64,000 bases of DNA from Nannochloropsis oceanica. Its lineage: Eukaryota > Sar > Eustigmatophyceae > Eustigmatales > Monodopsidaceae. The translations under genes and the position numbers were made by a program. Under the pieces are notes generated by a model, which had not been told where the DNA came from, made no database searches, and worked only from the letters and a program-made list of their open reading frames with translations. Positions 6,143 to 56,616 of this stretch are shown one piece after another (the stretch's first letter is position 1; the number at the start of each line of letters is the position of its first letter). The stretch lies in NCBI GenBank assembly GCA_004519485.1, contig CP038110.1, positions 558,001-622,000 of the forward strand, in the 5' to 3' direction.

Positions 6143-7561
6143 CTACCGGATGGATGGCAAATAACACCCAAACAAATGCGCTTCCCTCCGGTTTCTAAAT
6201 GGCTTCAACACCAACTCCTTTACCTGCACGTGCTCCTCGAATCCTTCCTCCTTCCCTCCGTCCTCTTTCACAGGCTCGATAAATTTAAAGAATGAGTGAA
6301 TCACCCTCTCAGGTACACAGCGGAGAAAGTCGGCCCCTTCTGCTCTCCCTCCCTCCCTCCCTTCCACAGCAGTCGCGTCTAGGTTAATGCCTCGAAAGAA
6401 ATTAAGGTGTATGGTGGCTACCTTAGGAGGGAGGAACTCCACAACCTTGAGAAGAAGAAAGGTCGAGGAGGAGGAGGAGGAAGGGAGGGAGGGCAAGGGG
6501 CAGGAGCGTAGGAGGTGCACCCATTGCTTCCGGAGCTTGGACGTGGCATTCGTGGCGTCGATGACGATGCTCTCTCCTTTCTCCAGGGCTTCCAAAGCGG
6601 CACGTTGGCATTTGTTTAGGGACTTGAGCGTATCTTGGTTTATGCGGGTGTGGTGGGGGAGGTGGATGTGGCAGTAAGTGGACTTCCCACAGGCGGGGGG
6701 GCCGAGAAGAAGGACGGCTTCTTGGCGCGTCGGAGGCGAGGGAGGGACGGAGGGAGGGACGGAGGGAGGGGTGACGGATTGTCCATGCTCTCCTGTGGAC
6801 AAAGTTGAGGAGGGAAGGCCGGTGCTCCCATTGCTGGTCCTACAGCCGGATCCCTTCCTTCTCACGACCACATACTCCTCCACCGCGCTCCTCCTCTCCC
6901 TCTCAATCGCCGCCTTCAACACCTCTCCTTTATCACAGCTCAGCCTACTTCCCAAAAAGAATTCCTCCGGGGTCTTGAACCCTATCCCTCCCACATTTAC
7001 CGCTAATTTCAGATCACTGTCACTGTGATCCCTCCCCCTCATCTTGCCCTGTTTCGGCCGCCCTGCCGCGTCGCCCACGAAAAAACTATTTGCTGTATCA
7101 ATCCCCTCCTCCCCTCCTCCTTCCTTTCTCCCCCCCCCTCCTCCTCTATACTTCTCCTCCAGCAGATACCAACTCCCTGGGGCCGGTTTATAGAATACGC
7201 TGTGATGCGTGGCAAAATATCCTTCGATTTCTGGGATCTTCAAGGCGGAAACCACAGAGGCGAGGCGCTGAAGGAGGGAGGAAAGGTCGGTGTTCTTGCT
7301 CTCTATGCCTCGTTGGTTTGAGATGATGACAACTTTATACCCTTCCTGGTGGAGGGCTTTGAGGGTGGGAGGGACGGAGGGATGGAACCATTGCCAGTCC
7401 GTGGGAGAGGCGGCGAAGGATTTTTGCGAGCGGGTTTTGATGAGGGTTGAGTCTAGGTCAAAAGCGGCGATACGTATGGGGAATGAAGGTGGGGCAGGGG
7501 GAGGGGACGAAACAGGGGAAGTGCAGGACTCAGGAATGGATTCAGTGTTGTAATTGATTGA

Positions 7562-7598
<37 letters not shown>

Positions 7599-8278
7599 TG
7601 GACTCGAAGATGCAAGAGGCCCACGTCGTACATGAGCCATTCTTGGTTGGGGGGTATGAAAGAATAGGAGAGGCGTTTGGGTGTGTGGCCTTGCAGCAGA
7701 GGTGGGGCGGGAGGCAGGGAGTCATCAGCGAAGATGTTGGAGGAGATATCTAGTCGAGGACGTTTCCCATTGGTGCTAGCGCCTTGCGGCTGGTCACCCC
7801 GTGCTGGGTGCTTGCCTGACACGTCATCGCCGCCTCTGTCGCCACCGCCGCCACCGCCGCCACCGCCGCCATCTTCAGCTGGCGCAAAAGGTTTTGCCTG
7901 CATGTCAATCTCGAAAGGGGTGGTATCCACGCACCTCTTCATTTTCAGGCATTCTGAAAGCCAGGAGTGATGGACCACCTTGATTGAAGAGGGAAGCGGG
8001 CCTTCCACGCCTAAGTCCATGAGAATGGAAGCAGGCGATGCGTCCTGATACTTGTCACCGCACAGCACGTGGGTCATGTCCGGGGGAAAATGCTTGCTGA
8101 CACTGACCGCAGCAGCTTTCTGAAAAAAGGACGATATTTTAGGCGGAATGACACGGCCACTATTTGCTTGCAGAGCTTTGGTGGCAGGTTGGGCGAATGT
8201 GTTGCTCAGTCCAAGGAAATAGACATGCACGCCCTTGAGAAAGGAGGAGGAGGAAGGCTTGGCGGTCGACAGAGCCAT
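6143..8278 (-). CDS. Polynucleotide 5'-kinase/3'-phosphatase with N-terminal BRCT domain
   Basis: Repairs DNA strand breaks by removing 3'-phosphates and phosphorylating 5'-OH ends, presumably in the nucleus. It is a single 711-residue exon. Residues 13-125 look like a BRCT domain: the hallmark helix reads IKVVHHSWLSECLKMKR, a buried Trp with a following Cys. A basic KRPRLD patch near 172 could be a nuclear signal. The HAD phosphatase spans about 268-445 with the catalytic FDLDSTL (274-280), IISNQRG, FYKPAPGSW and FFVGDAAGRP, then SDLKLAVNVGGIGFKTPEEFF. The kinase P-loop is GPPACGKST at 527-535, followed by the VIDATNAT motif. A poly-Ala run near 229-240 and Gly/Glu-rich loops near 137-147 and 379-392 come from simple repeats. 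Animal PNKP carries an FHA domain where this one has BRCT. The enzymatic identity is firm; BRCT is called from motif only. Confidence 0.93.
7563..7596 (-). repeat. CAG/CTG trinucleotide repeat encoding poly-Ala
   Basis: Eleven or so perfect CAG units (plus strand), read on the minus strand as poly-Ala between the BRCT and phosphatase parts of the PNKP gene. Confidence 0.9.
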
Positions 8279-9124
8279 GGTCTGTATCTGTCATGTGACG
8301 TATTGAGCTGGGGTGGGTTGTGGGGGCATAATTAGGTAGATTCGACTTAGAAACACGCATGTCTTGCGTGCGCCCAGCTCAGGCATGATCTATGCGCTAT
8401 ATCGCCGACGATCAAATTTGTATAGTAACGGAAAACGGTACCACACTCAACCCTAACATCACACAGGCTCTGAGGGCGCACACGATCCTGCTCAAAGCGC
8501 ATGTGGTGGTTGACCAAGTATCCCCTTCTGACAGAGGTAGAAGATGACCACCGCACTAATGTTGTGTATTGTAGTCGAAGAGCGTCGAACAACTCGAAAA
8601 GCAAAAACCTCCCCGTTCCGACGAATGATTTGGTCATGCCGACTAAAGTCGAGCAGTCTAAGGAGGTCAAGGTCATGCAATGTTGGCGGTCCAAGCAGGT
8701 ACGTATGTGTGCAGGAAGGCAGGCAAAGAAATCGAGAAAAGGCAGGAATCGGCGGCTTCGACACTGTTTTCCACTGATTCCGAGCACAGTTTGGGGACCA
8801 GAGGGGCGACAGGTAATGTCTCTTTTTTCGATAAGGCAAGCTGTATATTTCTTCTCTCTCGACGATGTTCTCACCCCATTCCATTCTTCTGTGTATTACT
8901 ATTCCTATTCCTTCTTTCTGGTATTGATTGACGAAACAAGACCGTAACTTCCTGCTGCTCGTTATTGCTTTCGCAATGAATGAATATTCTATACCCTTAG
9001 CGTCACATCCTCCTCGATCGTCTCTTAATCCCGCCTTCATGCTTGCCCGCGAACGCAAACATATCTACGCATATCTGCCCTCATTCACCTCATTTTCCCT
9101 TCACCCACACATATTGACGCTCTC
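8279..9124. other. Intergenic region left of PNKP promoter
   Basis: Contains the PNKP 5' flank on its left side and the 3' flank of the reductase-CacyBP gene on its right. Overlapping open frames of 148-188 codons on both strands near 8347-9058 show no family resemblance, so I call no gene. Confidence 0.45.
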
Positions 9125-16998: not shown

Positions 16999-19928
16999 CT
17001 ACATTTCCACCATAATGGAACTCTCGATATGACGGACTGACGAAGGCAAAGGCAAGACTGGTGGCAACACCACCTCCTGTCCCTCCGCCCCTCCCTCCCC
17101 ATCCGCCCGGACGATCAGAGGGTGAATTGCACTCGCCCCCATGCCGAGGGGAGGAGTATACGTGGAAGATGAGGAGGGGGTAGAAGCAGAAGACGCGAAG
17201 TGCTGAGCGTTATTACCAGACATGTCCTCGTTCTTGCCCGCCTTGCTGGTCGTGGCCTTATCCCTCTTAAACACCTTGCCTTTCCCGCTCTCGCCCGCCC
17301 CTCCTCCATCTCCTCCTTCTTCCATTGCTGCCTCCTCTGCCCCTGTTCGTTCATCTACTCTTGCTCCTGGTCCCTCCGATTGAGTCTTGCGCTTGCGACC
17401 CCGCGCCACCTTCCTGCCATCATAATCCGCACAACCTCCTGACGTAGAAGTACCGGAAGCATACTTTCCCCTCCCTCCGCCCCGACCTCCACCGCTGCCA
17501 CTGCCCACACTACAACCATCCTGCCCAGAGGCCATGGGGTGAGTCGAGCTTAGGGGTACCAATTGCGACATTGGCAATGTCTCGTGAGACTCCCACAAGG
17601 TGTTATAAGCCTCAAAAGCGTCTCTGTACTGCTCAGGCGGGAATGTAGGGGCGAGCTCTCGAATCGCATTGGACAGAGCTGCTTCCAGTCCAGGCCCCGG
17701 GGGACGAAGGGTGATCCCTGTCAGGAATGTGCCACGGACTTTTCGAATGCCGGTGGAAGGGAAGGGGGTCGAAGAGGAGATGGCGGGGGTGGGGGGGGAC
17801 GCAGCAGCGGTAATGGTGGCGGCGGCGGCGGTGCTGGAGGAGGAGGCCTCGTCGGAATCGGAGGAAGAGGAAGAAGAGGATTTTCTCTCCGCCTCCATTG
17901 CATTGCTGTTGGCCATCGCTCCCTCCTTTTCATTCCCCTCCTTCTCCTCCTCCAACCCCTCTCCCGAGTCATTCCCTTTCCCCTCCTCCTCCCCTTTCCC
18001 CTCCCCCTCCTCCACCACTTTCACCTCGCCCCCCCCTCCCCGTGGTATCCGTATTGGATGTGGCCGCACCGTGCATTCCCTCTTCCACTCCTTGCCCCCC
18101 TTCAGTCGCGCTAGCAATCTCTCTCCCTCTTCCCCACTCTCCTTCATCCGCGTCATCCCCTTGGCGAGGGCGAACCAGGTGTTGGCCTCTGTAAGGGGTT
18201 TAAGGCCCAAGCACGGCGGCCCCAGCAATCTCACAATAAATGTCCACAGACTATGTCCGCCCGTCTGACTCGCATCTGTCACCACGTATCCATCCGCATC
18301 ACTCTCTGTCACGGCAACCAACACCCTCAAGAACGCTTCCACGTCAACCCCCGTTCCCCTTCCCCCCTCCCTCCCTCCCTCCCCTCCTCCTCCAGGCGCT
18401 GCCGTTGCGACTGCTTCTTCTGCGGGTTTTGAATTGAGAGTGTCATTTGTCGGCACCTTGCCGCTCCTTCCGTCCCTCTCACCCTTACCTCCCTTTCTCC
18501 CGTCCACTGCCACTGCCTCTTCCCCTACTCCTCCTTTTCCTTTTCCTCCCTCTCCATCTTCTCCTCTTTGTATTTCACCCTTTTCTGCCCTATCTCCCTT
18601 CATCAACAACAACTGCTGCTGCTGCTGCTGCTGCTGTTGTTGTCTTGGAACGTAATGTGGGTGTAGCAGCCCGCTATCCCCCCTCACTTGCGCCACGGCC
18701 TTGACCTGTATTCAGTTTAGTGCGTTTATGAGTTGTGTGAGTTTCATCCCCGATTTCCCCCATTCCTACTTTCGAAAAGTGCGTAAACAGCTAGACTGAC
18801 ACTTGACGGCAACAGGAACATGAATTAAACATTAATCAATAAGAAACTGCCCTTCCTCTCTCCCTCCCTATTTCCACTCACCAGTGCCTGGAACGGGGTC
18901 TCCTCCTTCTTGGCCAAGGCCTCCTCCGCCGCTGCCGTTCTCCACAGATTCCGCCTTTTCCCACCCACCCCTGCCGCCCCCCCCGCCAGACGATTGTGCA
19001 CACAAATCGCCCTCTCGATATCGAGGGCTTCATGACTCATCCACACCGTCGACAGATACTGCTCGACAATCATCATGTACCTCGCTGGGCTTAATCCCGG
19101 AGCCACTGCATTTAACGCTGCTTGGAACTGAGGGTGAAATGAAGGGTCGCTTAACGGATTCTTCAATGAAATTCCCACGATAAAGGTCCCCTTTACTGCA
19201 ATCGGTTCCCCCAGGTCTCCCCGAGGCAAGCGCATAAAGTACTCGCTTGTCCGACATTCCCTTTCCCACCTAGTCGCCCCCAACAGAGCGTCAAGCCTTT
19301 CCGGCTTCTTGTCCCCCCATTGAGACAACGCCCTGGTCAGACTCCGCCACGTCCCACTCTCATTTGCCTCTGATCTTCCCAGGCACGAGGACCCAAACAA
19401 CCGGACAAGGAAACGCCAGAGGGAGTGGCCGTGCACCAGCGTCTCATCTGTGACGATAAACCCTTTCGGATTGGGCACTACGAGAGCACCGACCACAAGA
19501 AGTAAGGCATCAATATCAACAGGGAGACGCAGAGGCCGAGGCTTGTAGTGTGGGTAAAGCAAGTAGCGCATGGAGTGCCGGTGAGGGAGGGCGGTGGAAA
19601 CAACGCCGAGGGGCGGGGGAGGAGGGGGGGGAAGGGTGGTGGGGAAATTGATTGTGGTCGCTCCCTGGTCATTCTTGTTGTCAATACCATCGAACGCAGT
19701 GGTGCTACTCTTGCTGCCGCTTGTGGTGGCAGTGCCTGTAGGAGGAGCAGCAGCAACACCACCAGTACCGGGAGCACTCCCCGGTGAGGTTGTGTTGGTG
19801 GACGCTACAGAACATGACCCTGCGGCCTGGGGAGCTGTGGGCGTCGCACCATGGTTGTTTTCGTTTATCTCGATGGCCAGCTCTTCTTCTTCTAATGCAT
19901 TGGTCTTGCGGGACGTGTCTTCTGGCAT
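16999..19928 (-). CDS. Unrecognised 917-residue protein with a duplicated ~150-residue domain
   Basis: Exons 19928-18882 and 18705-16999 (donor CTG|GTGAGT, acceptor TACAG) join in phase: FQAL|VKAVAQVRGDSG. Each exon carries one copy of a related domain. Copy 1 lies at about residues 140-310 and copy 2 at about 465-705 after a Gly/Glu-rich linker. Shared blocks: a hydrophobic helix (DIDALLLVVGALV / DVEAFLRVLVAVT), then G(F/Y)(I/V)VTD.....GHSLW.F(I/V)VRL(F/L)G..CLG, a W(E/K)RECR-like block, an R(L/I)PRG turn, V(K/R)GTF(I/L).GI.L.P and a C-terminal helix ending (V/L)W.SHE. I do not recognise the family. Copy 2 is interrupted by a long Glu/Ser/Ala low-complexity insert before VRGTF. A CAG-type repeat at 18604-18643 encodes poly-Gln. 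The C-terminus is Gly/Lys-rich. There is no signal peptide or membrane segment, so the protein is probably nuclear or cytosolic. Confidence 0.8.
18604..18643 (-). repeat. Trinucleotide repeat encoding poly-Gln
   Basis: Plus strand CTG/TTG repeat; on the minus strand CAG/CAA, read as about 13 glutamines near the start of exon 2 of the duplicated-domain gene. Confidence 0.85.
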
Positions 19929-20368
19929 AGGTGAATCTGTTGCATGGGAGCAAGGCTCAGTTAGAGGTCAAAAAGGTTGTTGCTTTTTTTGGGGGGGGTT
20001 CAGAGAATACGGTGCAGCAGCCAGAGGCAGGCGTCAATCCCGCATGTGGCTTGATAGGGTGCTTGAAATCCAACGAGCCAAAGACATGCTGCATTTCCAA
20101 ACCTATGGCCTCCAAACGCTTGACTGATGCCACGGAACAAGGAGCATGGCACCAGGGCAATCCGAGGCCGGGAACCGGAGAAGAATCTTCTCGTGCTTTG
20201 GTCATGAAGCACAGCAACAAGGAAGTTGGAAGGGGCGTAAGGTAGAGATGATGACAAGGGCCTTCTTCCATGCCTCCCTCCCTCCCTCCCCCCTTTTATC
20301 ATACACATTACTCACGATTTCAAACCCTCATCCCACATGATCTCAGACGAGGTCAAGGTAGGCCAGTC
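19929..20368. promoter_or_regulatory. Divergent promoter region, duplicated-domain gene and WAPL
   Basis: 440 bp between two head-to-head start codons. It must hold both 5' leaders and promoters. No TATA-like element is obvious. The plus-strand frame is open without a stop from 20270 into the WAPL gene. Confidence 0.5.
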
Positions 20369-23300
20369 ATGGACGCCTTTGAATTCGTAGAGGAGGAAGA
20401 AGAGCGGACAAGGGAAGGCTTGGTGCTGTCCACATCGATGGGGAACAATGCCGCTGCGACATCGGCGACTGCCCGGGCTGCAGCGACCACGCGTGCAGAA
20501 GAACTTCCTCCTATTGGAGCGGCAGCTGCCTCGTTGCTAAGACGGAAACGGGCAAGAGCAGAAGCTGTCGCAGCGGGATGTGGTGGAAGGGGAGGAGATA
20601 AGGATGTTGGGAATGGAGGAGGAGGAGGTGGAGGAGAAGGAGAACAAAGAGGGAGAGGCACTGGAGCATTTCCGCATCCAGTGCAGAAAAAGTACGTCTC
20701 CTCTTCAGCCAAGCGAATGTCGATGTCGACCTTTTCCTCCTGCTCCTCCTCCCACGCTTCCTACGGCAGCAGCCGGAGCAGTAGCAGCAGCAAAAAAATC
20801 AGCGACTTTGATGCCCTCAGAAACGCAGCCACTTTATCGTCATCTTCCTCAACGAATAGTAGCTCGAGATCCTTCTCCTCCTATCGATCTCACGGAAGTC
20901 AAAGAAGCAGTATCATGAAATACGCAGCACCTCCATTTCCTACCTCTGCACCAGGAGCAGCAGCAGCAGGAGCAGTCATAGGAGAAGCAACAGCAGCAGC
21001 AGTGGCAGCAGAACCTGCAGCGAAGAGACCTTTATCTGCCTCCTCTTCCCGCCCTTTCTCCAGCAGCAACACTTCCCACAACGCTTCTGCACCTTCTACC
21101 TCTGCCTTCGCTACTGCTGCTGCTGATACTGCGGCCGCTGCTACTACTACAGCAGAGAAGAGACCCAACCCCGCATCCTCTTCTCTTACCTCCTCCTTCT
21201 TCACCTCCTCAATTATTCAGAAAAGTCTCCCCTCTATCACTGCGTGCAAACACATGAACCTCCATTCTCCTCCCTCCTCTTCCTCTCTCCTTTCTTCCTC
21301 CTCTTCCCCCCCCTCTTCCTCCGCTGCTGTAGTAAGAAGACCTCCCTCCACTTCTTCGTCTTCATCCGTACCACCAGCCTCGTGCCCCCTCCACTCCCCC
21401 ACATCAGCAGCGTCATCACCATCACGCACAACAAGAGTCCTGAATCCCCGTCCCCCTTCCAGACCTCCCTTCCCTCCCTCCCTCCCTCCCTCCCTCGCCA
21501 CCCAAGGGGAAACCCGTCTCTCCTCCCTCCTCCGCCTCGTCGAATGTGTTGGTCCTCACAATCCCTCCGGTTCTCTCCGTCGGTCCAAGGCTCTTGAGCT
21601 AGCACGTGCCGTCCGTGACCCGTACACTCGCTCCCTTCTCCATCTTCATCAGCACCAACAGCAACAACAGAAGCACCAGCAACAGCAGTTGCAGCAGCAG
21701 CAGCATATACAAGGGACTGTGGTTGGTCAGGTGTTTGAAATGCTGGGGGCGGCGATGACTGGGGGGAAGAAGGAGGGGAAGGAGGAGGAGGAGGAGGAAG
21801 TGGGTGCGTGTTTGGTGTGTGCGGTGCTGTTCCTGTTGAAAGACCGAGGCAATCGAGAGTATGTCAAGCGACCAGTCGTAGCGGGTGTGCTTCGGCTGCT
21901 GCGGCGATTGGTGATGGGGAGGGAGGGTGGTGGGGGGAAGAGGGAAAGGGGGGGAGGAAGGGGGCGAGGGGAGGGGAAGGAGGGAGGGCCGAAATATGGT
22001 AGGAAGAGATTTGCCACCTCCCGGTCGACGGTGCTGGAGAGTGTGAGGGGGCTGGTGGAGGAGGAGGAGGAGGAGGTGGTGGTGAGTGGGTTGGGGGCAG
22101 GGATGGGGATCGGGATGGGACAGCTGGCTTTGATGACGTTGCATCGCTTGGTGAGGGAGGAGGAGGACGAGGAGGAGGTGGAAGAGATGGAAGAGGGGAT
22201 GGTGGACGTGGATACGGAGGAGGAGGAGGAGGAGGAGGAGGAGGAGGAGGAGGAGGAGGAGTGCTTGGATGCTGCAGCAGGGACGAAGATTGATGGAACA
22301 GCCAAGACTAGCTTCAAGAGGAAACTTCACCGAGGGGGAGGAGGAAGAGGAGGGAGAGGCGGAGGAGGATGGGGGGTGGATGACCAGGGGCCAGGGTCAG
22401 CGCTGTGGAAGATGAAAGAGTACGTGAGGACGGAGGGGGGTCTCCCTCTGCTAGGTAGGATCCTCTTGGCGGCCTTGACGGCCTGGCCGAAGGGGGAGGA
22501 AGGGAAGGAGGGAGAGGGGGAGGGAGGGCTGCCGTCGTTGGGTGTGTTGACGGAGCTGCGGTTGTGCTTGGAGGTGCTCGAGAGTGCCGCGTACCTGGAT
22601 GTGGACAACCAAGTCTTCCTGGGTGGCCACCGCGTGAGTAGGGGAGGGAGGGAGGGGAGGGCCGCCTTGTCCTCCTCTGTGTCACTGGTGTCGCTGTTGT
22701 TGGAGCTGTTGAGGCGACTCAGAGACTTCACGGAGAGAGAGAGGGAGGAAGGGAGGGCGGGAGGGAGAGAGGAAAGACGGTGCAGCACCGCGGGAGGGGA
22801 GTGTTGTGGCCCCAGGGAGGGGGGGCAGGGGGGAAGGGAGGAAGAGATGGAGGGGCGGTTGCCTCAACACCTGTTGTTGGGCACGTTGAGGGTTTTGGTT
22901 AATTTAACGCACCACAACCAAGAGGCCATCAGGCAAGTGGTCGGCTGTGGTGGTGTGAGGGCATTGATAGAGGTGGTGATGGTGCACTCGAGGGGGGAGG
23001 GTCTGATGGAGGTCGTGAAGGAGGCAGGGGAGGAGGAGAGGGAAAAGAAGAATCGACTTTCGTCTTCCTGCTCCGTGCGCCCGGGCTCGAGTAGCAGCAG
23101 ACAAGGAGCTGCTACCCTTCCTCCTTCTTCCTCCTATCTCTCCTCCTCCTCTCCTCCGCCTCCTCCGCCTCCCAGCTCCCGTCACACCACCAGCAGGAGC
23201 ACTGCCCGAGCCCTTCCTCCCTCCCTTCCTCGACCTCCCCCTCCGCATGGGCTGCGAGAGACCGAGTCGTTTGACGTGAAACTGCTAGGATTAAATGTCC

Positions 23301-25084
23301 TGACCAACTGTGTGGAGAGAAGTAAAGAAGGCAGGGAGGAGCTTGCCTTGTACAGGGTGAGGTGGAGGGAGGGGGGGAAGGGGGTTGTGAGGATGTTTGG
23401 GCCTACGGAGGAGGAGGAGGAGGAGGAGGAGGAGGAGGAGGAGGAAAAAGGGAAGGAGGGAACGATGATGTCGATGTTGAGATTCCTGGTAGAGTATCTC
23501 CGAGAGATTGTCCGGCCGTTTGCGCGGCAGTTGGCGAAGGAAATTAACACGTCGGGGGAGGGAGGGAGGGAGGGAGGGGTGAACCACACCGTTGGAGCAG
23601 GAGCAGGCACAGGAGCAGACGTCATTGTCATGGTCGAAGACGAAGACGGGAAGAAAGGCGAGGACGAGGACGCAGAGCAGGAAGAGTTGTTCGGGGACGA
23701 GCAAGCCGAGCAACTCGTCTTGGCCGGCCACCTGGCCCTCCTCCTTGGATGCCTCGTCAGAGACCATCCCCCGAATCGGAGGGAAATCTTCGCCCATCTC
23801 CCCACCCGGAGCCCACACCTCCTTATCCGTGTCCTCAAAGCCTTCCTCGCTTTCCAACAATCCGTCGGGGTTTTAACCTCCACTATCATGGAGCCCGTCG
23901 CAGGCCTCATTGCTGAACTGGAAGGTGCTCCTCTACCCGTCCTTCCTCCCTCCCTGCCTCCCCCTCAATCGACGTTTTCCTCGGCTCCACTCTCGGCTAC
24001 TGAGGGTGGTCCTGGGTCTAAAGCTCCTGCTCTTCTCTCTTCCTCTGCCTCCTCCTCCTTCTTCTCTACGATAACGTCGAGAAGAGGCGTTCCTCCCTCT
24101 CCTCCTCCCTCCCCCACCCGCCCCTCCTCGTTACTTCCCCCCCCCTCTCCCTCCTTCTCCTCCTCTTCCGCTGCTGTGGATGACTGCTTCTCTCTTTCCC
24201 GTCCAAGCAGCCGCATGGGCAGTAAGAAGAGTCCTCCTCCTCCTCATTCGCCTCCTCCTCCTCCTCTTTCTTCCTCTTCTTGCCCTTCCTCTTCTTCCTC
24301 GTCTGCTCGCGCGGGCGGCTCTGCTGGTACTGCTACTGCTAATACCACAGCTACAATTACTGAAGCTGCTCCTGCTTCTCCGTCAGTCTTTACAGCGGGG
24401 AGGAGGCCGAGACAGCCAGTTCCTTCCCCCTCCTCTTCCCCCTCCTCTTTTTCTCGTTCTCCTGCTGCTGAGAAGAAAGAAGGGAGCAAAGTGACAGCGG
24501 CGGCTGCTGCTGAAGGAGGAAAAAGGGGAAGAGGGGAAGGAGGAGGGAGCAGCCGCAGCTGTCGTAGCTGCCCTCTCTCTTCGCCTAATACAGATTTGAT
24601 ATCCCAGGAAATCAATGGAGGGGGTAGGGAAGGGAGGGGGAGGGGGAGGGATAAAAGAGAAGGACGAGGAGGTGGGGGTGTGGCGGGTAATCAGGAGAGT
24701 GTTCGCAGCACTAGGAGCACGACTAAATTGGCCGCTGCCAAATTTGCTGCTGCTCCTGCTGCTCCTGCTGCTACTGCGGCGGCGGCGGCGGTGAAAGCTG
24801 GTGGTAGGGAAGTGAATAGGAGCAGCATCAGCAGCACCAACAGCAACCGCAACGACAAGCCTGCTGTGTCTGCTGCCTCTGCCACGACCAGGAACCTGAG
24901 AAGAAATGTCAATAGCACCATCAGTAGCACCAGCAGTACAAGCAGCAGCAGTAGCGCCACTGATCGCAGCAAAAATGTGATGATGGAAAGAGGGCCGAAG
25001 GGTGCTGCTGTTGCTACGAAGGGGATGAGAAGGAAAGGAGAACAGGTTAAGAAGGATATGGAGGTGTTTAACTTTAAGGGATAA
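20369..25084 (+). CDS. WAPL-like cohesin release factor
   Basis: WAPL proteins open the cohesin ring together with Pds5 and so control sister-chromatid cohesion and loops. This is a single open exon of 1571 residues from the ATG at 20369; an in-frame ATG at 20270 is possible. The helical-repeat WAPL domain runs from about residue 384 (SLLRLVECVG, then ARAVRDPYTRSLL) through LLGTLRVLVNLTHHNQEAIR and VKLLGLNVLTNCVERSKEGR to the diagnostic end HLALLLGCLVRDHPPNRREI and IRVLKAFLAFQQS near 1185, which parallels the end of human WAPL. The helices are spread apart by Glu, Gly and Ser runs. The N-terminal 380 and C-terminal 380 residues are Ser/Ala low complexity with basic patches. GAG repeats at 22217-22262 and 23408-23446 encode poly-Glu. 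A GTGAGT at 22634-22639 inside a GGREGR stretch could be a donor, but I see no good acceptor. Confidence 0.85.
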   Translation: MDAFEFVEEEEERTREGLVLSTSMGNNAAATSATARAAATTRAEELPPIGAAAASLLRRKRARAEAVAAGCGGRGGDKDVGNGGGGGGGEGEQRGRGTGAFPHPVQKKYVSSSAKRMSMSTFSSCSSSHASYGSSRSSSSSKKISDFDALRNAATLSSSSSTNSSSRSFSSYRSHGSQRSSIMKYAAPPFPTSAPGAAAAGAVIGEATAAAVAAEPAAKRPLSASSSRPFSSSNTSHNASAPSTSAFATAAADTAAAATTTAEKRPNPASSSLTSSFFTSSIIQKSLPSITACKHMNLHSPPSSSSLLSSSSSPPSSSAAVVRRPPSTSSSSSVPPASCPLHSPTSAASSPSRTTRVLNPRPPSRPPFPPSLPPSLATQGETRLSSLLRLVECVGPHNPSGSLRRSKALELARAVRDPYTRSLLHLHQHQQQQQKHQQQQLQQQQHIQGTVVGQVFEMLGAAMTGGKKEGKEEEEEEVGACLVCAVLFLLKDRGNREYVKRPVVAGVLRLLRRLVMGREGGGGKRERGGGRGRGEGKEGGPKYGRKRFATSRSTVLESVRGLVEEEEEEVVVSGLGAGMGIGMGQLALMTLHRLVREEEDEEEVEEMEEGMVDVDTEEEEEEEEEEEEEEECLDAAAGTKIDGTAKTSFKRKLHRGGGGRGGRGGGGWGVDDQGPGSALWKMKEYVRTEGGLPLLGRILLAALTAWPKGEEGKEGEGEGGLPSLGVLTELRLCLEVLESAAYLDVDNQVFLGGHRVSRGGREGRAALSSSVSLVSLLLELLRRLRDFTEREREEGRAGGREERRCSTAGGECCGPREGGQGGREEEMEGRLPQHLLLGTLRVLVNLTHHNQEAIRQVVGCGGVRALIEVVMVHSRGEGLMEVVKEAGEEEREKKNRLSSSCSVRPGSSSSRQGAATLPPSSSYLSSSSPPPPPPPSSRHTTSRSTARALPPSLPRPPPPHGLRETESFDVKLLGLNVLTNCVERSKEGREELALYRVRWREGGKGVVRMFGPTEEEEEEEEEEEEEKGKEGTMMSMLRFLVEYLREIVRPFARQLAKEINTSGEGGREGGVNHTVGAGAGTGADVIVMVEDEDGKKGEDEDAEQEELFGDEQAEQLVLAGHLALLLGCLVRDHPPNRREIFAHLPTRSPHLLIRVLKAFLAFQQSVGVLTSTIMEPVAGLIAELEGAPLPVLPPSLPPPQSTFSSAPLSATEGGPGSKAPALLSSSASSSFFSTITSRRGVPPSPPPSPTRPSSLLPPPSPSFSSSSAAVDDCFSLSRPSSRMGSKKSPPPPHSPPPPPLSSSSCPSSSSSSARAGGSAGTATANTTATITEAAPASPSVFTAGRRPRQPVPSPSSSPSSFSRSPAAEKKEGSKVTAAAAAEGGKRGRGEGGGSSRSCRSCPLSSPNTDLISQEINGGGREGRGRGRDKREGRGGGGVAGNQESVRSTRSTTKLAAAKFAAAPAAPAATAAAAAVKAGGREVNRSSISSTNSNRNDKPAVSAASATTRNLRRNVNSTISSTSSTSSSSSATDRSKNVMMERGPKGAAVATKGMRRKGEQVKKDMEVFNFKG
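22217..22262 (+). repeat. GAG microsatellite encoding poly-Glu
   Basis: Perfect GGA/GAG repeat within the WAPL-like gene, read in frame as about 15 glutamates. Confidence 0.9.
23408..23446 (+). repeat. GAG microsatellite encoding poly-Glu
   Basis: Second perfect GAG repeat in the WAPL-like gene, about 12 units, separating two helical blocks of the domain. Confidence 0.9.
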
Positions 25085-35881: not shown

Positions 35882-36201
35882 CCTAGAGGTGCCTGTGTGT
35901 ACGGTGGCAGGGAGAGGATGGGGATAGACTTAGGTGAGATCATCTCTTAATAACCTGGTGAGCCACACACAGACATGACCATAGCAGCGGAAAGCTGACA
36001 AGGACTGTCCTTGTCCCGCATGCAATGCTACCATGTCTAACTTGGCTGTGAGAGCTGTAGACGTGGACGCTTCCAAGTTGCATCATCGCCGACGAGACGG
36101 CAACAACCGAGCAACCATAAGCCTCCTCCCCCTAATGCATTTCCCAAACCGCTCGCACACACAGCCGCGCCAGCAGCAACTATGTCTTGATAACGACCTC
36201 C
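35882..36201. promoter_or_regulatory. Bidirectional promoter shared by two plastid-protein genes
   Basis: 320 bp between the S4-domain gene (-) and the LuxR-like regulator (+). Both flanking starts encode plastid-type presequences, so a shared control region is likely. No core element is recognised by eye. Confidence 0.5.
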
Positions 36202-37323
36202 ATGTCCTCGTCCTTGTGCTCCACTCCGAAAATGCTGCCACCCTTCCTTCTCCTTTCCTTCATCCTCATCCTCCTCCTCCTCCTTCCTCCATCCCTAGCC
36301 TTCCTCCCCCCAGTCCTCCTCTGCTCCTCCTCTTCTTCCACAACCACCACCACCACCTCAACAAGCCTGGACGCCGGTCTCTCCTGGCGAACCGATGAGA
36401 TCTATCACTCCCAACCGGACTTCCCAGTCCTCTTTCTAGCTACACGCAACGAGACGTATGCCCGTGAAGTCGAACGGCATTTTGGGGGCCAGGGTTACTT
36501 TGTCCGTTCCAGTCGTACCCTCACCCGGCTAGCCAAAATGGTCAAGACTACGAGGCCAGAAGGGATCTTGATAAGCGATCACTTGTCCACGTCACATATT
36601 TTGGGTTTCTTAGCTAATTTGAGGGATTTGCCTGATTTGTGGTTAATCCCAATTTTCATTGTGCATGACCTTCCTTCACCTACTGCTGCTACTGCTGCTG
36701 TTGGAGGAAGCGATGGTACTGCTGTAGACGGCGAGGGATCGGGGAAACAAGAGGTTGACAGCAGCAGCAGCAAGAGCAGCCGGCATCGGATACGGAAGAA
36801 AAAGTCCCTCCAAGACGACATCATTGATGCAGATTACACCCCTCCTTCCCTCGCTTCCTCATCCTCACCTCTTTCCCAAAAAGATCAAGAACAAAGACAA
36901 CAGCAATGGCGACAATACCACCTCGAGATGCTCCGTCTCGGTGTTCGTGGCATCATCACCCCTTCCTCACCTCCCCTCCCCGAGCTCCAAGCCTTGCTCG
37001 ACGGGGCAAAAGTCACCCGGGGACGAGTCGAAAATTTAGTCTCTACTCTGCAGGGAGGAGTTCTCCACCTCTCGCAACACCAGAAGCGTCTTCTCCCTTC
37101 CACAATTACGCTTGAAGGCCCCCCGCCTCGTTTCACGAACACGGAGCAGGAGGTTTTAAATTTGTTAAGTCGGGGGATGACGGACCAGCAGATAGCTTAC
37201 TCCTTGGGCTGTACAAGCGCGACGGTGGGGAATGCAGTGAGAGGGTTGTTGAAAAAATTGGAGGTGGATCTGAGGGGGGAGCTTATCCGGGTAGCAATGG
37301 ATAATGATTTGCTGACTGAATAG
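36202..37323 (+). CDS. Nuclear-encoded, plastid-targeted LuxR/NarL-type regulator (Ycf29-like) with degenerate receiver
   Basis: Single exon, 373 residues from the ATG at 36202 (36232 is the alternative). A signal peptide MLPPFLLLSFILILLLLLPP leads to SLAFLPP, a plastid-type A|F site, then a Ser/Thr-rich transit region. Residues ~70-280 resemble a response-regulator receiver split by a ~100-residue low-complexity insert: VLFLATRNE, GILISDHLSTSHIL, LIPIFIVHD, then LEMLRLGVRGIITPSSPP. The acidic pair of strand 1, the Thr of strand 4 and the Lys of strand 5 are not seen, so phosphorylation is doubtful. The C-terminus (~315-373) is a clear LuxR-type helix-turn-helix: FTNTEQEVLNLLSRGMTDQQ and IAYSLGCTSATVGNAVRGLL. 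Red-lineage plastid genomes encode ycf29 of this architecture, so this may be a relocated or parallel copy. It is probably a plastid transcription regulator. Confidence 0.82.
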   Translation: MSSSLCSTPKMLPPFLLLSFILILLLLLPPSLAFLPPVLLCSSSSSTTTTTTSTSLDAGLSWRTDEIYHSQPDFPVLFLATRNETYAREVERHFGGQGYFVRSSRTLTRLAKMVKTTRPEGILISDHLSTSHILGFLANLRDLPDLWLIPIFIVHDLPSPTAATAAVGGSDGTAVDGEGSGKQEVDSSSSKSSRHRIRKKKSLQDDIIDADYTPPSLASSSSPLSQKDQEQRQQQWRQYHLEMLRLGVRGIITPSSPPLPELQALLDGAKVTRGRVENLVSTLQGGVLHLSQHQKRLLPSTITLEGPPPRFTNTEQEVLNLLSRGMTDQQIAYSLGCTSATVGNAVRGLLKKLEVDLRGELIRVAMDNDLLTE

Positions 37324-37639: not shown

Positions 37640-40600
37640 CTACTGCTCTAAGTCCACAATCAGTACCCCAATATTGTCCATGCTCCCTCTCACATACGCC
37701 TCCCACGTCAACGCCCGCGCTAACGCATGCCAATCCACCCTCTTCCGTCGCCAGACGGTGCGCCTTCTCTCCCTCCCTGCTTCCTCCTCCTCCTCTTCCA
37801 CCACCATTACTTCCTCCCCCATCTCCTCCTCCCCCTTCTCCTCCTCCTCCTCCTCCTCTTCCTCCTCTTCCTCAATCTTCTGCTCCAAAAACGCCACCAC
37901 CTCCGCATTCCCCATCACATCCCACAACCCATCCGAAGCCAACACCAAATACCGATACCTCGCCCTCCCTCCCCTCCTCCCTCCCTCCCTCCCTCCCTCC
38001 CTCGCCCCTCCAAGCGAAACCATGGACATGTGGGGTTCACGTGACAAAAGTCCGTCATACAAGAAATCACCCATTGAACGAGACAAGGCCAACTGCCCCT
38101 CTACGCGCCATACGTCTTCTCCTACATCAGCAGCAGTAGCAGCAGAAGTGGCAGCAGCAGCAGCAGCATCATATGCAACAGCATCCCTACTGCTCTTGCT
38201 GCTACTACTACGACTACTGCTACTACTACTGCTGCTGCTGCTTCTACTGCTACTATTACTATTACTACTACTACTGCTTCCCTCAGTAAAAGATGTCTCA
38301 TTTCCCTTCCTACCCCCTTGCCGCCAAATTCTCGCTCCCCTCTCTTCTAGCGCTCGTCTCTCTTCCGGATTCGATGCCGTGTGGTCAACCGTCATCTCCA
38401 CCGGTCGCTCCCTCCCTCCCTCCCTCCCGTCCTCTATCTCACAACATAAGATAGCCTTAGAGTCCCCCACATTTGCCACCAGCAGCAGTTTCTCCTTTGG
38501 AAATACCAGCGCGAACGTCGCCGTCGTCCCAGACCGGTCATACATCCCTCCCTCTCTCCCTCCCTTCCTCCCTCCCTCCCTTCCTCCTCCTCCCACCATC
38601 AACAAAGTCTTCAAATCCGCATTCGTCCTTAAAAAAGCCTCTCGTACTGCCTCCTTCAACGCCCCCTCTTCAACACCACCCTCCCCCCCTCCCTCCCTCC
38701 CTCCCTCCCACAAGGCTGCAAAATGGGCATGTAAAGTTGCGGAAGCAAACTTTGCCGCCTTTGTACCCCAATGCCCGTCGTAGATTCCGTAATACTGGTA
38801 CTCCCCCTCCCTCCCTCCCTCCCTCCCTCCCCCCCACCCCATGGAATGGTAATCTTCCAACGTCTTTCGCCTTCCCTGCACATCACACCACCCCGAATGG
38901 GGGTCCAGCGGCAGTAGGGCATGAGAACCAATGCAGGACGGAAGGGAGGGAGGGAGGGAGGGAGGAGTGCGGGTGTCGTAACGGCAGAAGAGGCCGTGTT
39001 TCCGAGCGTGGAGGTGGGCGTGGCACGACGGCCAGTCAGAAAAGGAACGGGAGCAGCGGGGGCAGGAGAAGGAGGAGGGGCCTGCAGGGTGTTGTTGAGA
39101 GAGAAAGGAAAAACGACTGGAATTCGTTGGGGTGGAGGAAGGGGAGGAAGGGGGGGAGGGAAAACGGGGAGAGGGTTCTTGCAGTGGTGCTGTGGTGGCG
39201 ACGGCCTTTCGCTCACTTCTGCTCCTGCCGCCGCTGCTGCTGCTGCTGCTGCCAGCCAATGAGGTCAAGAAGGAGGATGAAAGGCTTATCAAGGCCTTGC
39301 TCACACTCGTCACTGACACAGCTGTCATGGAATTCGCTGCTACCTTTCCTCTGGGCATCTTCCCTCCACCTCGCATTACCACCTCCTCCTCTTCTTTCTG
39401 ATTCTCCTCCTCCTCCTCCTCCTCCCCTTCCACTGTTGCCATCCCCTCCCTCCCACATCTCTCCTCCATCTCCCTCCTCGTCGCCCACTCACTCCCGTCC
39501 CTCCCACACACGTACGGACCCTTGAAGTACGCATGGGCCAACGCCTCCCGCGGTCGAATTCTCTTCCCCGGCTCCCACTGCAACAACAGCGACAACAAAT
39601 GCAGCCCCCAGTGATCATGAAACCCCACATCGAGGGGATCTCGCTGTTGCAAGGCTCGACGCAAGTCCTCGAGGGTGCAAGCACTACCGGCCATGGCAGG
39701 AAGGGAAGGCGGGCGAGAAGAGGAAAGGGGGCCAGGCGCGGCATGGTGGCTGTGATGGTGGGTTTGATGATGCTGTCGCTGTCGCCACAAACTCTTCAAC
39801 GCCTCCACCCACGTGTTCTTCTTCCTCCCCCCTCCCCTCCCTCCTTCCCTCCCTCCTTCTTCCTCTTCCCCAAACACGTCTGCAGGCCCAACCACACAAA
39901 AGTCCGCCAAGGCCGCAAGAAGGTACGCGCGCTGTCGATCCTCCTCTGTTTCCCGTTTTAACTGATGCGCCAATATATTCCTATCCCTCGACGACAACGT
40001 GAACACATGAGGCGTCCCCAGAATTAATTCTAAGAAGATGACGCCGATGGACCAGCTGTCATAGCTTTGGGGGTCGCCGACGGCAAAAGGCAAGGAAGGG
40101 TGGAAGAGCACTTCAGGAGGCATGTATTCAGTCGTTTCCTCCTTCTGCGTCGGACCCTCCGGCCCGTACAGGTTCTGCCCCCTTTCGTCCCTCCCGTCCT
40201 CGACTTGGGACACCATATCCACTGCCGACGAAAAATCAGATACTTTCAACACCGCTTCAGGCCCCCCACCGTTTCCTTCAAAATTTTGATTTTGAACTTT
40301 TAAATTCAAAATAAGATTGCTTGGTTTTAGATCTCTGTGAGCGGCTCCTGCGGCGTGAACCTCGGCTGTTCCCTCTAAAATTTGACGTAAGAGGCCTTTG
40401 AGGACATCGTCGCCTCCAGGGCTGAGACGGAGGTGCCGCCAGAAGGCCGAGGGCTCGAAGAGGAGGGGATCGGAGGCGTGATGAGAGGAACGGGGGGAAG
40501 GTGGGATGGTGGAGGAGGAGGACGAGGAGGAAGGAGGAGGATGAGTAGGAGTGTAGAGGTACCGCCGTAGACTTATCCCTTCATCGTGGAAGACGATCCA

Positions 40601-42256
40601 TAGCTCCAGCCCCTCCCCTTCCCCCCCTCCCATCCCCCCTCCCTCCCTTGCACTACTACTGCTGTTCCTGTAAAAATGCTCGACATACCTCGCCACATGC
40701 GGTCTGCCCCTCAACCTCCTCCCAAATACCACCTCCCTCACTCCACACCTCCAAATATCCGTGTTTATCTTCCCTCCCTCCCTCCCTCCTTCCCCCATCG
40801 CCATCCTCTTCATCACATACCTCTCTGGTGATAGCCTGTAACCCCCCCCCTCGTCTTCCACCACCAAGTAGGCTCGCCAGATTTCTCCATGTCCCCCCCC
40901 CTCAAATTTGCGGCCCAAACGATAATGCTGCTGCTGCTGCTGCTGTTGCAATCGTCGCTGCTCCTGCTCGCCGTCGTGATCCTCGGCCCATTCCTCCCCC
41001 TTCTCTTCCCCGCCCTTTCCAGCAACACTGCGACTCGCTATATTTTGCTGCTGCTGATGCCGGTGCTGCTGCTGATGATGAGGAGGAGGATGATGCTGGT
41101 GGTGATAATGGCTGGCCCCATCCCGCCACTGCCGGAATCCCTTTGCCAGCTGCTCCATCAGCCTCCTCAAACCCAATCCTTCCTCCCCTGCCTCCCTCCC
41201 TCTCTCCTTCCTTCCTTCACTACCAACACCCTCCCGGTGCCAAAATGAAGAAGACGTGGACGGGAGCATAATACCTTTGTCAGCAGCCGCAGCAGCCGCA
41301 GCAGCCGCAGCCGCTGCAGCTGCAGCAGCAGCAGAGTCGTGTTTCAGAGGGCCGGCCACCAAGGCAAGCCTCTGCAGGAGCGCTGATTCCTCCTCATCTT
41401 CCTCCACGCTGCCTGTGAGCAAACGACCGCTGCTGGCGGTGGCCATGCTGCTGCCTATGGCGGTATTTGACTTGCGAGCTGGTAGCACCGACGAGGTAGA
41501 TGAGGAGGAAGAAGACGAGGACGACGAGGAGGAAGGAAAGGCAGGAAGCTGCTTCAATTCGGGGGTGACAAATGCATAATCATGCACGTGGTGCCGTACC
41601 CCTTCCTCCAAATATGTCACTCCCAACGGCTGAATGAAGTCTTGCAATATGTATCGATCGTGAATCAACTCGCCGCGTTGAAGTGTTGTGGAGAGAGCCC
41701 CCCCGCAGGAGGTGGAATGGACTTGAAGGGTCGAAGGGCTCGTGGTAGTCGTCGCTGTTGGGGTCATCATGCTGTTCGGTCTTCTCCCACTCAAGGTTTT
41801 CTTGCCACTGCTGCTACTGCTGCTGGGTCGGGTACCAGGGCGGGGGTTGTAAGGTTTAGGGACGAGGAATGTACCATGCTCACCCATCTTGAGGCTCGTG
41901 CCCTTTTCCCCGTTAGAAGACGGGGAGGACGACCATAAATTGTTTTTGGCACCAGAATTATCGTCGCGGAAGTTGTTACTGCTGCTCTTGTGAGCACTGT
42001 CACCGTTCTCATGAGTGCTCGTAATGCCCGTGGCAGGACAGGAGGGACCTTCCGAGGAACCTTGGTGATGGAAGTGATGATAGAAGTGCTGCCAGTCCGT
42101 CCGACTGAGCAGGAGCAATGCCCAGGAAATGAGAGCGCCCACCAAGACGTTGGTATTAAAGATGGCGCCGTTACCGTCTTCATTTCCTTGGTGCTGATCT
42201 TGTACAGGGAATGAATCCGCCCGAGACCTTGGGCGGCGGGCTGGAGACGGGGGCAT
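37640..42256 (-). CDS. Protein kinase - C2H2 finger - PP2C phosphatase fusion
   Basis: Single exon, 1538 residues from the ATG at 42256. Kinase and phosphatase in one chain is known in plants (kinase and PP2C-like proteins). An N-terminal hydrophobic stretch VLVGALISWALLLL (about 36-50) may anchor it in a membrane. Kinase (about 450-830): GGGHGEIW loop, VMKRM lysine, AAHRDLKPSNLIL catalytic loop, VSDFSSA in place of DFG, YMPPE, DSWSIGVIFLELILGTP. A C2H2-like finger follows: CPRCSRSFSDWPSCHAHLHA, then RKHG. PP2C domain (about 1160-1538): TLEDYHSMGW, YYGIYDGHWG, SGTTATFALV, LLVANVGDSKAIL, VEMTVDHTASNPEE, LALSRSMGDF, LASDGLWDVMG, SMDNIGVLIVDL; metal-binding Asp residues are present, so the phosphatase is probably active. 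GGREGG insertions and poly-Ser/Ala/Gln runs lie between and within domains. The kinase may be active despite DFS. Confidence 0.9.
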   Translation of the reverse strand: MPPSPARRPRSRADSFPVQDQHQGNEDGNGAIFNTNVLVGALISWALLLLSRTDWQHFYHHFHHQGSSEGPSCPATGITSTHENGDSAHKSSSNNFRDDNSGAKNNLWSSSPSSNGEKGTSLKMGEHGTFLVPKPYNPRPGTRPSSSSSSGKKTLSGRRPNSMMTPTATTTTSPSTLQVHSTSCGGALSTTLQRGELIHDRYILQDFIQPLGVTYLEEGVRHHVHDYAFVTPELKQLPAFPSSSSSSSSSSSSTSSVLPARKSNTAIGSSMATASSGRLLTGSVEEDEEESALLQRLALVAGPLKHDSAAAAAAAAAAAAAAAAADKGIMLPSTSSSFWHREGVGSEGRKERGREAGEEGLGLRRLMEQLAKGFRQWRDGASHYHHQHHPPPHHQQQHRHQQQQNIASRSVAGKGGEEKGEEWAEDHDGEQEQRRLQQQQQQQHYRLGRKFEGGGHGEIWRAYLVVEDEGGGYRLSPERYVMKRMAMGEGGREGGKINTDIWRCGVREVVFGRRLRGRPHVARYVEHFYRNSSSSAREGGGMGGGEGEGLELWIVFHDEGISLRRYLYTPTHPPPSSSSSSSTIPPSPRSSHHASDPLLFEPSAFWRHLRLSPGGDDVLKGLLRQILEGTAEVHAAGAAHRDLKPSNLILNLKVQNQNFEGNGGGPEAVLKVSDFSSAVDMVSQVEDGRDERGQNLYGPEGPTQKEETTEYMPPEVLFHPSLPFAVGDPQSYDSWSIGVIFLELILGTPHVFTLSSRDRNILAHQLKRETEEDRQRAYLLAALADFCVVGPADVFGEEEEGGREGGRGGGRKKNTWVEALKSLWRQRQHHQTHHHSHHAAPGPLSSSRPPSLPAMAGSACTLEDLRRALQQRDPLDVGFHDHWGLHLLSLLLQWEPGKRIRPREALAHAYFKGPYVCGRDGSEWATRREMEERCGREGMATVEGEEEEEEENQKEEEEVVMRGGGKMPRGKVAANSMTAVSVTSVSKALISLSSSFLTSLAGSSSSSSGGRSRSERKAVATTAPLQEPSPRFPSPPSSPSSTPTNSSRFSFLSQQHPAGPSSFSCPRCSRSFSDWPSCHAHLHARKHGLFCRYDTRTPPSLPPSLPSCIGSHALLPLDPHSGWCDVQGRRKTLEDYHSMGWGGGREGGREGEYQYYGIYDGHWGTKAAKFASATLHAHFAALWEGGREGGGEGGVEEGALKEAVREAFLRTNADLKTLLMVGGGGREGGRKGGREGGMYDRSGTTATFALVFPKEKLLLVANVGDSKAILCCEIEDGREGGRERPVEMTVDHTASNPEERRALEERGARIWRQGGRKGNETSFTEGSSSSSNSNSSSRSSSSSSSSSSRSSSSKSSRDAVAYDAAAAAATSAATAADVGEDVWRVEGQLALSRSMGDFLYDGLLSREPHMSMVSLGGAREGGREGGRRGGRARYRYLVLASDGLWDVMGNAEVVAFLEQKIEEEEEEEEEEEEKGEEEMGEEVMVVEEEEEEAGRERRRTVWRRKRVDWHALARALTWEAYVRGSMDNIGVLIVDLEQ

Positions 42257-43369
42257 GGGGTGAGAAGGAAGGAAAGAGCTTGAAAGGTCAAACAAGGAAA
42301 GGCTGCGCTGGCGACATTGGCTCCTATATGGTGCGCACTGTGCGAACGGATGGTGTGGAGGTGGAGATTAGACGCGTGAGGGTAGCAAAAGGATGGAGAG
42401 GCAAGGCTTGGCGAGCATTATTGGGAGGGGAGAAATAAGCGGCGGAAATTAGGGGAGGAGATTTTGACACAGGTGACTGTGTCGCACTGACACAGCCCTG
42501 TGCTTTTTACTTCGATATCCTCGATCCCTCCCTATACTTTGTCTAGAGCTCGCTTTAGACCCTCGGGGGTGCGCGTTTGCGTCGCGTAGGTTTTTAGGTC
42601 GCATCCCCCCCCTCCAGTTTCTACGATCCCGAACCTCACCACTCCCTAAAATACAATGAGGAGCTCGGTGAGATCTCGCATTACGTATTCTATGTGGCTA
42701 TATCTTGGCAGTACTTCAGCAAAAGAGATAACTATTTGTACCCCCGCAACCATCGAGGAGAACTGGATCCGGCACACGCGGGTAAGATGCAATTTGAAAC
42801 GCGATGTCACGAGTATCAATTCTCTTCTTTGAACATTTTCATATGCTTGGCTGCCGGATGTCAGGCCTAAAATGCGATAAATAAATATTCGATTAGGGGA
42901 GCCCTTCTGAATCCAGATTACTGATGCCTCACCAAAATGCCGGCCGTAGGTACCGTTCTATCTAGCTAACAATAATTGGTACTGGAAACATAACTCCTGT
43001 CGATGAGTTGTGGGCAAAGTATTATTCAAATCTGACAATCTACTTCAGTGCTGTGTAAGAAACGACAGAAACTGATTGAAAAACTCACATTTGTAAATAT
43101 TAACCAAAAGGATGAAACAAAACATTGCACATTTTTGTGATCGTGGTGGCATCTTTTGTTCTCGATCACCGTAATTATGCCTCCGATATGCCCCTTCCTA
43201 TCCAAACATCTGCGTATTTTGGGGGCTACACTTTGTATCTTCCAATATACTTATAGAACTCTGAAGATTTATGTCTCGATCATCCCGTTTGATGACCATC
43301 AAAAAGCACAATCGTATGACAAAATACGGAAATAGCGTCTACATCCGTCGATCTCAAATTCAATAGACC
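42257..43369. other. AT-richer intergenic region
   Basis: 1.1 kb between the 5' end of the kinase-PP2C gene and the 3' end of the CobW-type GTPase, both on the minus strand. AT content rises sharply from about 42650. No gene, repeat or RNA is recognised. It should hold the kinase-PP2C promoter. Confidence 0.5.
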
Positions 43370-54357: not shown

Positions 54358-56509
54358 TCATTCTACTTTACCCTTCCCTGCTGGTCTTTTTCTTAGCGTC
54401 CCTGTCGCCCCTGTCGCAGCTCCTCCTGCTGCTGCTTCTGCTGCTTCTAATCCTACCCTTCCCTTCAAAACATTTGCGGCTGTACCCACTGCCTCCTTAC
54501 TTTTCATTTTGGGTCGCCCCTTGACTGTCGCTACTGTCCACATGTCGGAGATTACATGCGACCTTCCTTCCTGGCCTGCCAAGGCCATCTGCACCAGCGT
54601 CTCCAATTGCTCTTCCTTCTGCTTTTCATTCCCTCCCTCCGCCCCTACCTCACATCCTTGTCCCCTCCCCACAACGTTGGTCGGGTGGTTGGCCATGTAC
54701 ATAAGTCTCTGACCATTCCCGTTGCCCGGCCCTGTCAAGGACGCTGGCATCACTATCTCGCGTGTTTTCCCTCCCATCAACAGCATTTCCGCTGCAGGAT
54801 CGTCGGCATTCAGGGCCTCTCTCACCTCCCGTTCCAACACAATTTGTCGCCGAAAATACGCCCCTTGACCAGAGGACAAAGATTCCTCTGCCTTCTTCAA
54901 TAACCGCTTCGCCTCCTCCTGCATTGCTCTTTTGTGTGGACCCTCCTCTATACCATATATTTTCCCCCTCCCTCCTAGCATCTCACGTGCATCCTCCCGC
55001 CTCCGATAGGCCTGCCGGTGGACCGCCAGTGCCCATTCCCCCAAGATCAAGGCCGTGGATTGCTCGTCCAGGGTCTGGTGCGTGGCCTGAATAGAGGAGA
55101 AAATCACCGGGGCCAGGGCAATCAGCCGCTCATCCCACTCGCTCCATTCCAACAGCGCCTCCCACCTCCTCCTCTCATTTCTTTCCCTCCTCTCATTTGC
55201 CCTCCAACTACACTTCTGACTACTTATCTTCAAACACCCCCTCCTCCCCTCCTCCATCCCCTCCATGTCTTTCTCCTCCTCCTCCTTCTCCTCCTCCTTC
55301 TCGATCTGTATCGCTGTACCCACCCTCTCTTTTGCCTCATCCACCATCCGACACACACCATCAAACAAGAACCTTCTCGCCCTCTGCAGCAACGAATGCT
55401 GCGGATGCAACCACCGTCCACTCAACAGACAAATCAGAGTCTCGTAATCGTCCACCTGACGCGCCGTTCTCAAAACTCCCTCCCTCCCTCCCTCCATCTT
55501 TCCTTGGTGTGAAACTTTTTCAAGCTCTGCTTCGAAGCGGCGTTCAATGGCCAAGACGTCAGCAGCTGGGATAGTGGCATGACACTCATCGCATTGATAA
55601 TAGGAGAAGGAGGAGTAGGACAAGCAAGCGGAGGAGGACTTAAATGGAGCAAGTAGCGGTCGGGAAGGGTCGTCCTCGTCCTTCTCCTCTTCCTCCTGGT
55701 GCTGGTGCTGGTGCTGGTGCTTCTGCTTGCTGTCACTTGCACTCTCGCTCCTCCTTCTCGCACTCCCCCCTCCCACCACCGGTCGTAATGGTGAAAACAA
55801 CCCTCCTCCTCCTCCTCCTCCTCTTCCTCTTCCTCCTCCTCCTCCTCCTCCTTTCCTTCCTTCTTTTTCACACATTTCCTCCCCCCATCCCTCCCCCTCC
55901 CTCCTCCTACACAGGGGGCAACCCACAGTCCCCGTCTCCAACCCTCCCTCCTTCGGGTCCACGCATCTCTCACACATACACGCCCACCCTCCCTCCGTCC
56001 CTCCCCCCTTCTGTGGAAACCTCCCCTTGGCTAAAGCCAGCTGTCGTTGTCTGGTCGAGAGCTCGGCATTGACGTATGAAACGGTGATTGCTTCTCCTTT
56101 TTTTATTTCCTTCAAGGCTCGTATTTGTAGGCGGTAATCCTTTGCCGCTTTGGCAATGGAGAGGGTCGAATTGGGGAAGCAGGAATGGAGGGAGGAGCAG
56201 GCACGGGGGAAGAGAGCGTAGGCATGGTTGAGGGGGAGGCCAGGGCGGACGGAGGGGTTGTCGTGGGTGGGGAGGGGGAGGGAGTGGAAGAGGGTGAGGG
56301 AGAGGAGGTGCGCGACTTCCGGAGTGGAGAAGATACGGCGAGAGTGGGAAGAGAAGGGAGGAAGGTGATGTAGGGGGAGAAAGGGGGGAAGGGGGAGGAG
56401 CAGTTGCTTGTGGATTTGGTGCTGATTATCCTTGCTGTTGCCCTTTTTGCATTTTTTGTTGCTGTCATTGTTGTTGTTGTTGCTGCTGCCGCTGCTTCTG
56501 CTGTTGTCG

Positions 56510-56570
<61 letters not shown>

Positions 56571-56572
56571 GG

Positions 56573-56616
<44 letters not shown>

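Follow-up and report, generated by a model that had tools for sequence, protein, structure and literature searches.

A duplicated domain in a Nannochloropsis oceanica protein represents an apparently undescribed multi-gene family with a possible DNA-binding role in the nucleus

Three described domains serve as points of comparison for a predicted 917-residue protein encoded in the window, the 64,000-nucleotide stretch of the Nannochloropsis oceanica genome assembly analysed here (C13:558001-622000). Two of them are winged helices: the RFX DNA-binding domain (PF02257; RFX1 1dp7 and RFX5 8zjr) and the Pox_D5-type domain (PF03288), represented by the origin-binding domain of phage P4 alpha (1ka8). 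The third, the ARID domain (PF01388), is all-helical. The window protein carries two copies, A and B, of a domain that differs in sequence from each of these. Its sequence and profile likeness to RFX is no better than that of decoys, it has no profile likeness to Pox_D5, and it vaguely resembles ARID in two motifs. As far as the methods used reach, this is a real, undescribed, multi-gene domain family, and the evidence below supports the window protein as a two-domain member of it.

Is the internal duplication real? The original prediction described two regions of about 150 residues, one per exon, sharing six motifs in a fixed order. All six motifs are present in the same order in both copies (for example VTDETLVHGHSLWRF / VTDASQTGGHSLWTF and WMSHE / WESHE) and the exon placement agrees with the gene model, whereas the domain core is longer, at about 185 residues (175-186 letters per copy in the well-filled alignment columns), and the motif quoted as GTF..GI.L.P should read GTF..GI.L..P. 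BLASTP aligns 103 aa of the N-terminal parts of A and B at 39% identity (E 4e-22) and 64 aa of the C-terminal parts at 34% (E 2e-9). The likeness is therefore far above chance, and the duplication is real. Upstream of the six motifs, both copies also have a PHY.PR motif (LLYPHYKPR in A, LLHPHYVPR in B). Two low-complexity inserts break up copy B, one of about 96 residues and one of about 100; the former, with poly-Q at its start, separates PHY.PR from the remaining domain.

Two copies is the correct count for the protein but not for the genome. In a six-frame search of the assembly (29,264,788 bases, 32 contigs), copy A recovers copy B and three further copies, named C (on C5, E 2.9e-21), D (on C16, 2.8e-18), and E (on C2, 7.6e-18). 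The same five are recovered by queries C, D, and E (E <= 10) and by the N-terminal half of copy B. There are thus at least five copies in at least four genes, alignable from end to end and counted as members on that ground. Pairwise identities range from 26.5 to 40.4%, with 21 invariant columns; the conserved residues are mostly aromatic, glycine, or hydrophobic, and the invariant polar ones are D42, S50, E71, R117, Y172, and E181 in copy A numbering. Judged by their alignment, the five copies are homologous and have kept common residues across four loci. Copy B shares 40.4% identity with E and 36.4% with A, which makes E the nearer of the two. All inner branches of the five-copy tree lack support, so the tree does not decide whether A and B arose by a recent tandem duplication. 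Few places carry large inserts: copy B has one in its wing-like region and one ahead of the first helix, and copy C has one of about 90 residues following the VTD-equivalent. Large low-complexity inserts are tolerated at these few fixed places, as in surface loops. Copy D lies in a frame of 223 aa from stop to stop that ends 9 residues past the domain, with nothing after it.

The joined minus-strand frame of the window gene starts with Met 19928 and is uninterrupted until its stop codon at 16999, as read from its open reading frames. A putative intron of 176 b (18881-18706, GT-AG, phase 0) would link the two frames. Both the linker between A and B and the C-terminal tail are of low complexity, and the gap in the BLASTP alignment that defines the longer insert is flanked by copy B residues 105 and 206. 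The features are:

18882-19928 (-): exon 1, with copy A; 349 codons beginning with Met 19928; open frame followed by a GT donor at 18881
18706-18881 (-): putative intron in the linker between copies A and B; donor CTG/GTGAGT, acceptor TACAG/GTC
16999-18705 (-): exon 2, 568 codons plus stop, with copy B and the low-complexity C-terminal tail; open frame
19011-19571 (-): domain copy A, residues 120-306, without a large insert; five-copy alignment A1
17563-18354 (-): domain copy B, residues 467-730, with one internal low-complexity insert; alignment A1 and BLASTP
18643-18669 (-): LLHPHYVPR, counterpart of the LLYPHYKPR directly before copy A; read from the sequence
17740-18039 (-): low-complexity insert of about 100 residues that separates the PR and V.GTF motifs of copy B; BLASTP gap
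17386-17415 (-): RKVARGRKRK, a basic tract C-terminal to copy B that may be a nuclear-localisation signal; read from the sequence
19929-20368 (no strand): 440-b gap from the window gene start codon to the first Met considered for the WAPL-like gene; from coordinates
20369-25081 (+): divergent WAPL-like neighbour (cohesin-release match), outside the domain family; Pfam PF07814

Does the domain belong to a known family? It had been proposed that it could not be placed in one, and a profile or structure search assigning both copies to a described family was sought without being obtained. The five copies have no match at a meaningful score in Pfam, where the window frames also lack a credible match, in NCBIfam (none at E <= 1), in PHROGs (two weak matches, 0.19 and 0.22, each on a single member of the five, taken as chance), or in PDB sequences searched with the five-copy profile (best E 0.063, then 0.7 and 1.4, likewise taken as chance). 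Profiles and models were built from five sequences, and HMMER filters discard weak matches. Positive controls were recovered in Pfam (RFX1 at 2.2e-33 and the ARID2 RFX region at 2.5e-21 with PF02257; the P4 fragment at 7.2e-18 with PF03288). Phage records yielded no relatives by tblastn at E <= 1. Pattern scans depend on short peptides, exact or degenerate, and have low sensitivity for distant relatives; three scans of viral contigs matched 6, 5, and 95 stretches and two scans of GTDB matched 95 and 145, none of them confirmed. A few isolated hits were rejected as chance: IFT52_central on residues 149-191 of copy D only (E 0.011, 16.5 bits, below the cut-off of 27.9), TFIIF_alpha in one of the five members (E 0.0029), BKRF4 in one of five (E 0.0033; its exon 2 match, at frame residues 235-320, falls inside an insert), and ISG65-75 on copy A (0.18). 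Among the papers listed for Nannochloropsis on ARID, transcription factors and their binding sites, novel domains, and conserved hypothetical proteins, no name for the family appears; searches for Nannochloropsis and RFX, for RFX winged helices in stramenopiles, and for N. oceanica and cohesin retrieved no paper.

The structure comparison that had been suggested gives no confident fold match, and it provides one weak lead. AlphaFold2 (AF2) models were made from five sequences for copy A (m23e403e68afd, covering 18978-19571) and copy D, with predicted local distance difference test (pLDDT) scores of 74.9 and 73.1, which indicate moderate confidence. For copy D, the top three realigned chains (3/3) are all DNA-binding winged helices, albeit weak matches, and the lead is of the RFX type; a new family, then, need not be a new fold. 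Compared with RFX, the modelled Nannochloropsis domain has one more helix and one more strand separating its recognition helix from its wing, a pair of added helices at the C-terminal end, and variable inserts in the wing. PF02257 finds no match on the five copies at E <= 10, a search in which HMMER filters discard weak ones, and none in the genome. In decoy tests, which counted how many of 60 column-shuffled decoys scored at least as high, 12 of 60 did so against RFX in local and 15 of 60 in global alignment. For the Pox_D5 type, 42 of 60 (local) and 50 of 60 (global) decoys are as good, PF03288 has no match on the copies or in the genome, and the primase-helicase domains of that system are absent around the Nannochloropsis domain. 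Since hhalign, decoys, and genome scans add nothing from sequence or profile, the RFX lead is a weak structural one.

How might such a domain work? We tentatively prefer a reading that we hold as quite possible, short of probable: a winged-helix-like unit that binds either DNA itself or a DNA-bound partner within the nucleus. The domain may thus serve as a DNA-binding module there, and winged-helix DNA binding is the best single candidate mechanism. The fold would run through helix, strand, helix, a recognition helix with the conserved W..L, and a pair of strands whose end is V.GTF..GI.L; two C-terminal helices, which hold Y..(L)W.SHE, would cap the unit. Copies A and B on their long flexible linker would make a bivalent binder, acting on DNA or on a partner there, and the low-complexity tails could recruit partners. 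The inference to DNA binding and the nucleus draws on the structural lead, on basic clusters in three of the four family genes, and on the low-complexity flanks, which are common in nuclear regulators. In 1000 shuffles, clusters as rich are reached 0 times for gene C, 22 times for gene E, and 112 times for the window gene, so that the tract RKVARGRKRK is weak on its own. The copy A model does not show the RFX likeness, and hhalign against three RFX sequences gives a probability of 0.2%, with the 18 aligned columns falling at a non-equivalent place. Two results weigh against DNA binding and nuclear location: a basic cluster is absent from gene D, and charge is near neutral in two copies (22 K+R to 19 D+E in A, 19 to 19 in B).

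The near-neutral charge fits with an undescribed globular domain of its own fold that serves protein-protein contact or scaffolding instead of DNA binding, the duplication making a bivalent adaptor. This is a real possibility if a somewhat doubtful one. It agrees with the absence of a confident fold match for either model and with the aromatic, glycine, and hydrophobic character of the conserved residues, but the weak copy D matches all point to DNA-binding winged helices and the models themselves are of moderate confidence. The few invariant polar residues could instead mark an enzyme domain, or one that binds a ligand, from a family not yet recognised; this seems distinctly improbable, given that no catalytic-type motif is recognised, no family matches, and long low-complexity inserts adjoin the conserved motifs. 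Could the family already be named elsewhere among eukaryotes and have been missed because of the collections searched? These were viral, prokaryotic, PDB, and curated-family sets, and short-pattern scans miss distant relatives, but Pfam covers all life and has no matching model, which leaves this a quite unlikely explanation. Where protists have been sampled sparsely, orphan domain families are frequent. A bolder proposal, that the fold lies outside the PDB, was invented in or is confined to eustigmatophyte algae, and forms a tandem nuclear module whose gene has an upstream region in common with the WAPL gene, is unlikely but conceivable.

A divergent ARID domain, suggested by D..L..V..GF.VTD and the closing Y..LW.SHE, was rejected by profile tests and is extremely improbable. 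The likeness is superficial and concerns two motifs. Against the two ARIDs of the genome, hhalign gives a probability of 0.1% (E 0.47), and 20 of 60 local and 13 of 60 global decoys are as good. The Pfam model picks two other genes and none of the five copies (0/5). As a positive control, a two-sequence profile of those ARIDs retrieves 22 PDB sequences at E <= 1, mostly named ARID-type, where the five-copy profile retrieves none. Both models of the Nannochloropsis domain contain beta-sheet, by which the predicted fold differs from ARID. The two ARID genes above the Pfam cut-off (L007, C28:244085-244306; L008, C17:421876-422067) are profile-unrelated to the domain.

If the winged-helix reading is true, standard family models have overlooked a class of DNA-binding proteins; the alga serves in oil production, and regulators are sought there as targets for engineering. 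Should the fold prove new, copy D is a small stand-alone domain suited to expression and structure solution. Under either reading, the five-copy alignment suffices to seed a family model.

The window gene and the WAPL-like gene (PF07814, E 2e-7, 30.8 bits against a cut-off of 24.6) are arranged head to head, the start codons being 440 b apart when the first considered WAPL Met, at 20369, is used; shared regulation of the two is possible. Elsewhere in the window, 6146-8290 (-) encodes a polynucleotide kinase 3'-phosphatase whose kinase part is of the AAA_33 type and whose N-terminus matches BRCT. A 1148-codon frame at 54361-57804 (-) has a partial, borderline match to the SET domain (E 1.6e-4; 22.5 bits, cut-off 22.4). 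A 1575-codon frame at 37643-42367 (-) encodes a single protein with both a protein kinase domain (E 2.4e-17) and a PP2C phosphatase domain (E 1.4e-32). At 36136-37320 (+), the C-terminal end of a frame holds a LuxR-type helix-turn-helix (GerE, PF00196, E 4.8e-10), a bacterial-type DNA-binding domain in what is apparently an algal nuclear gene.
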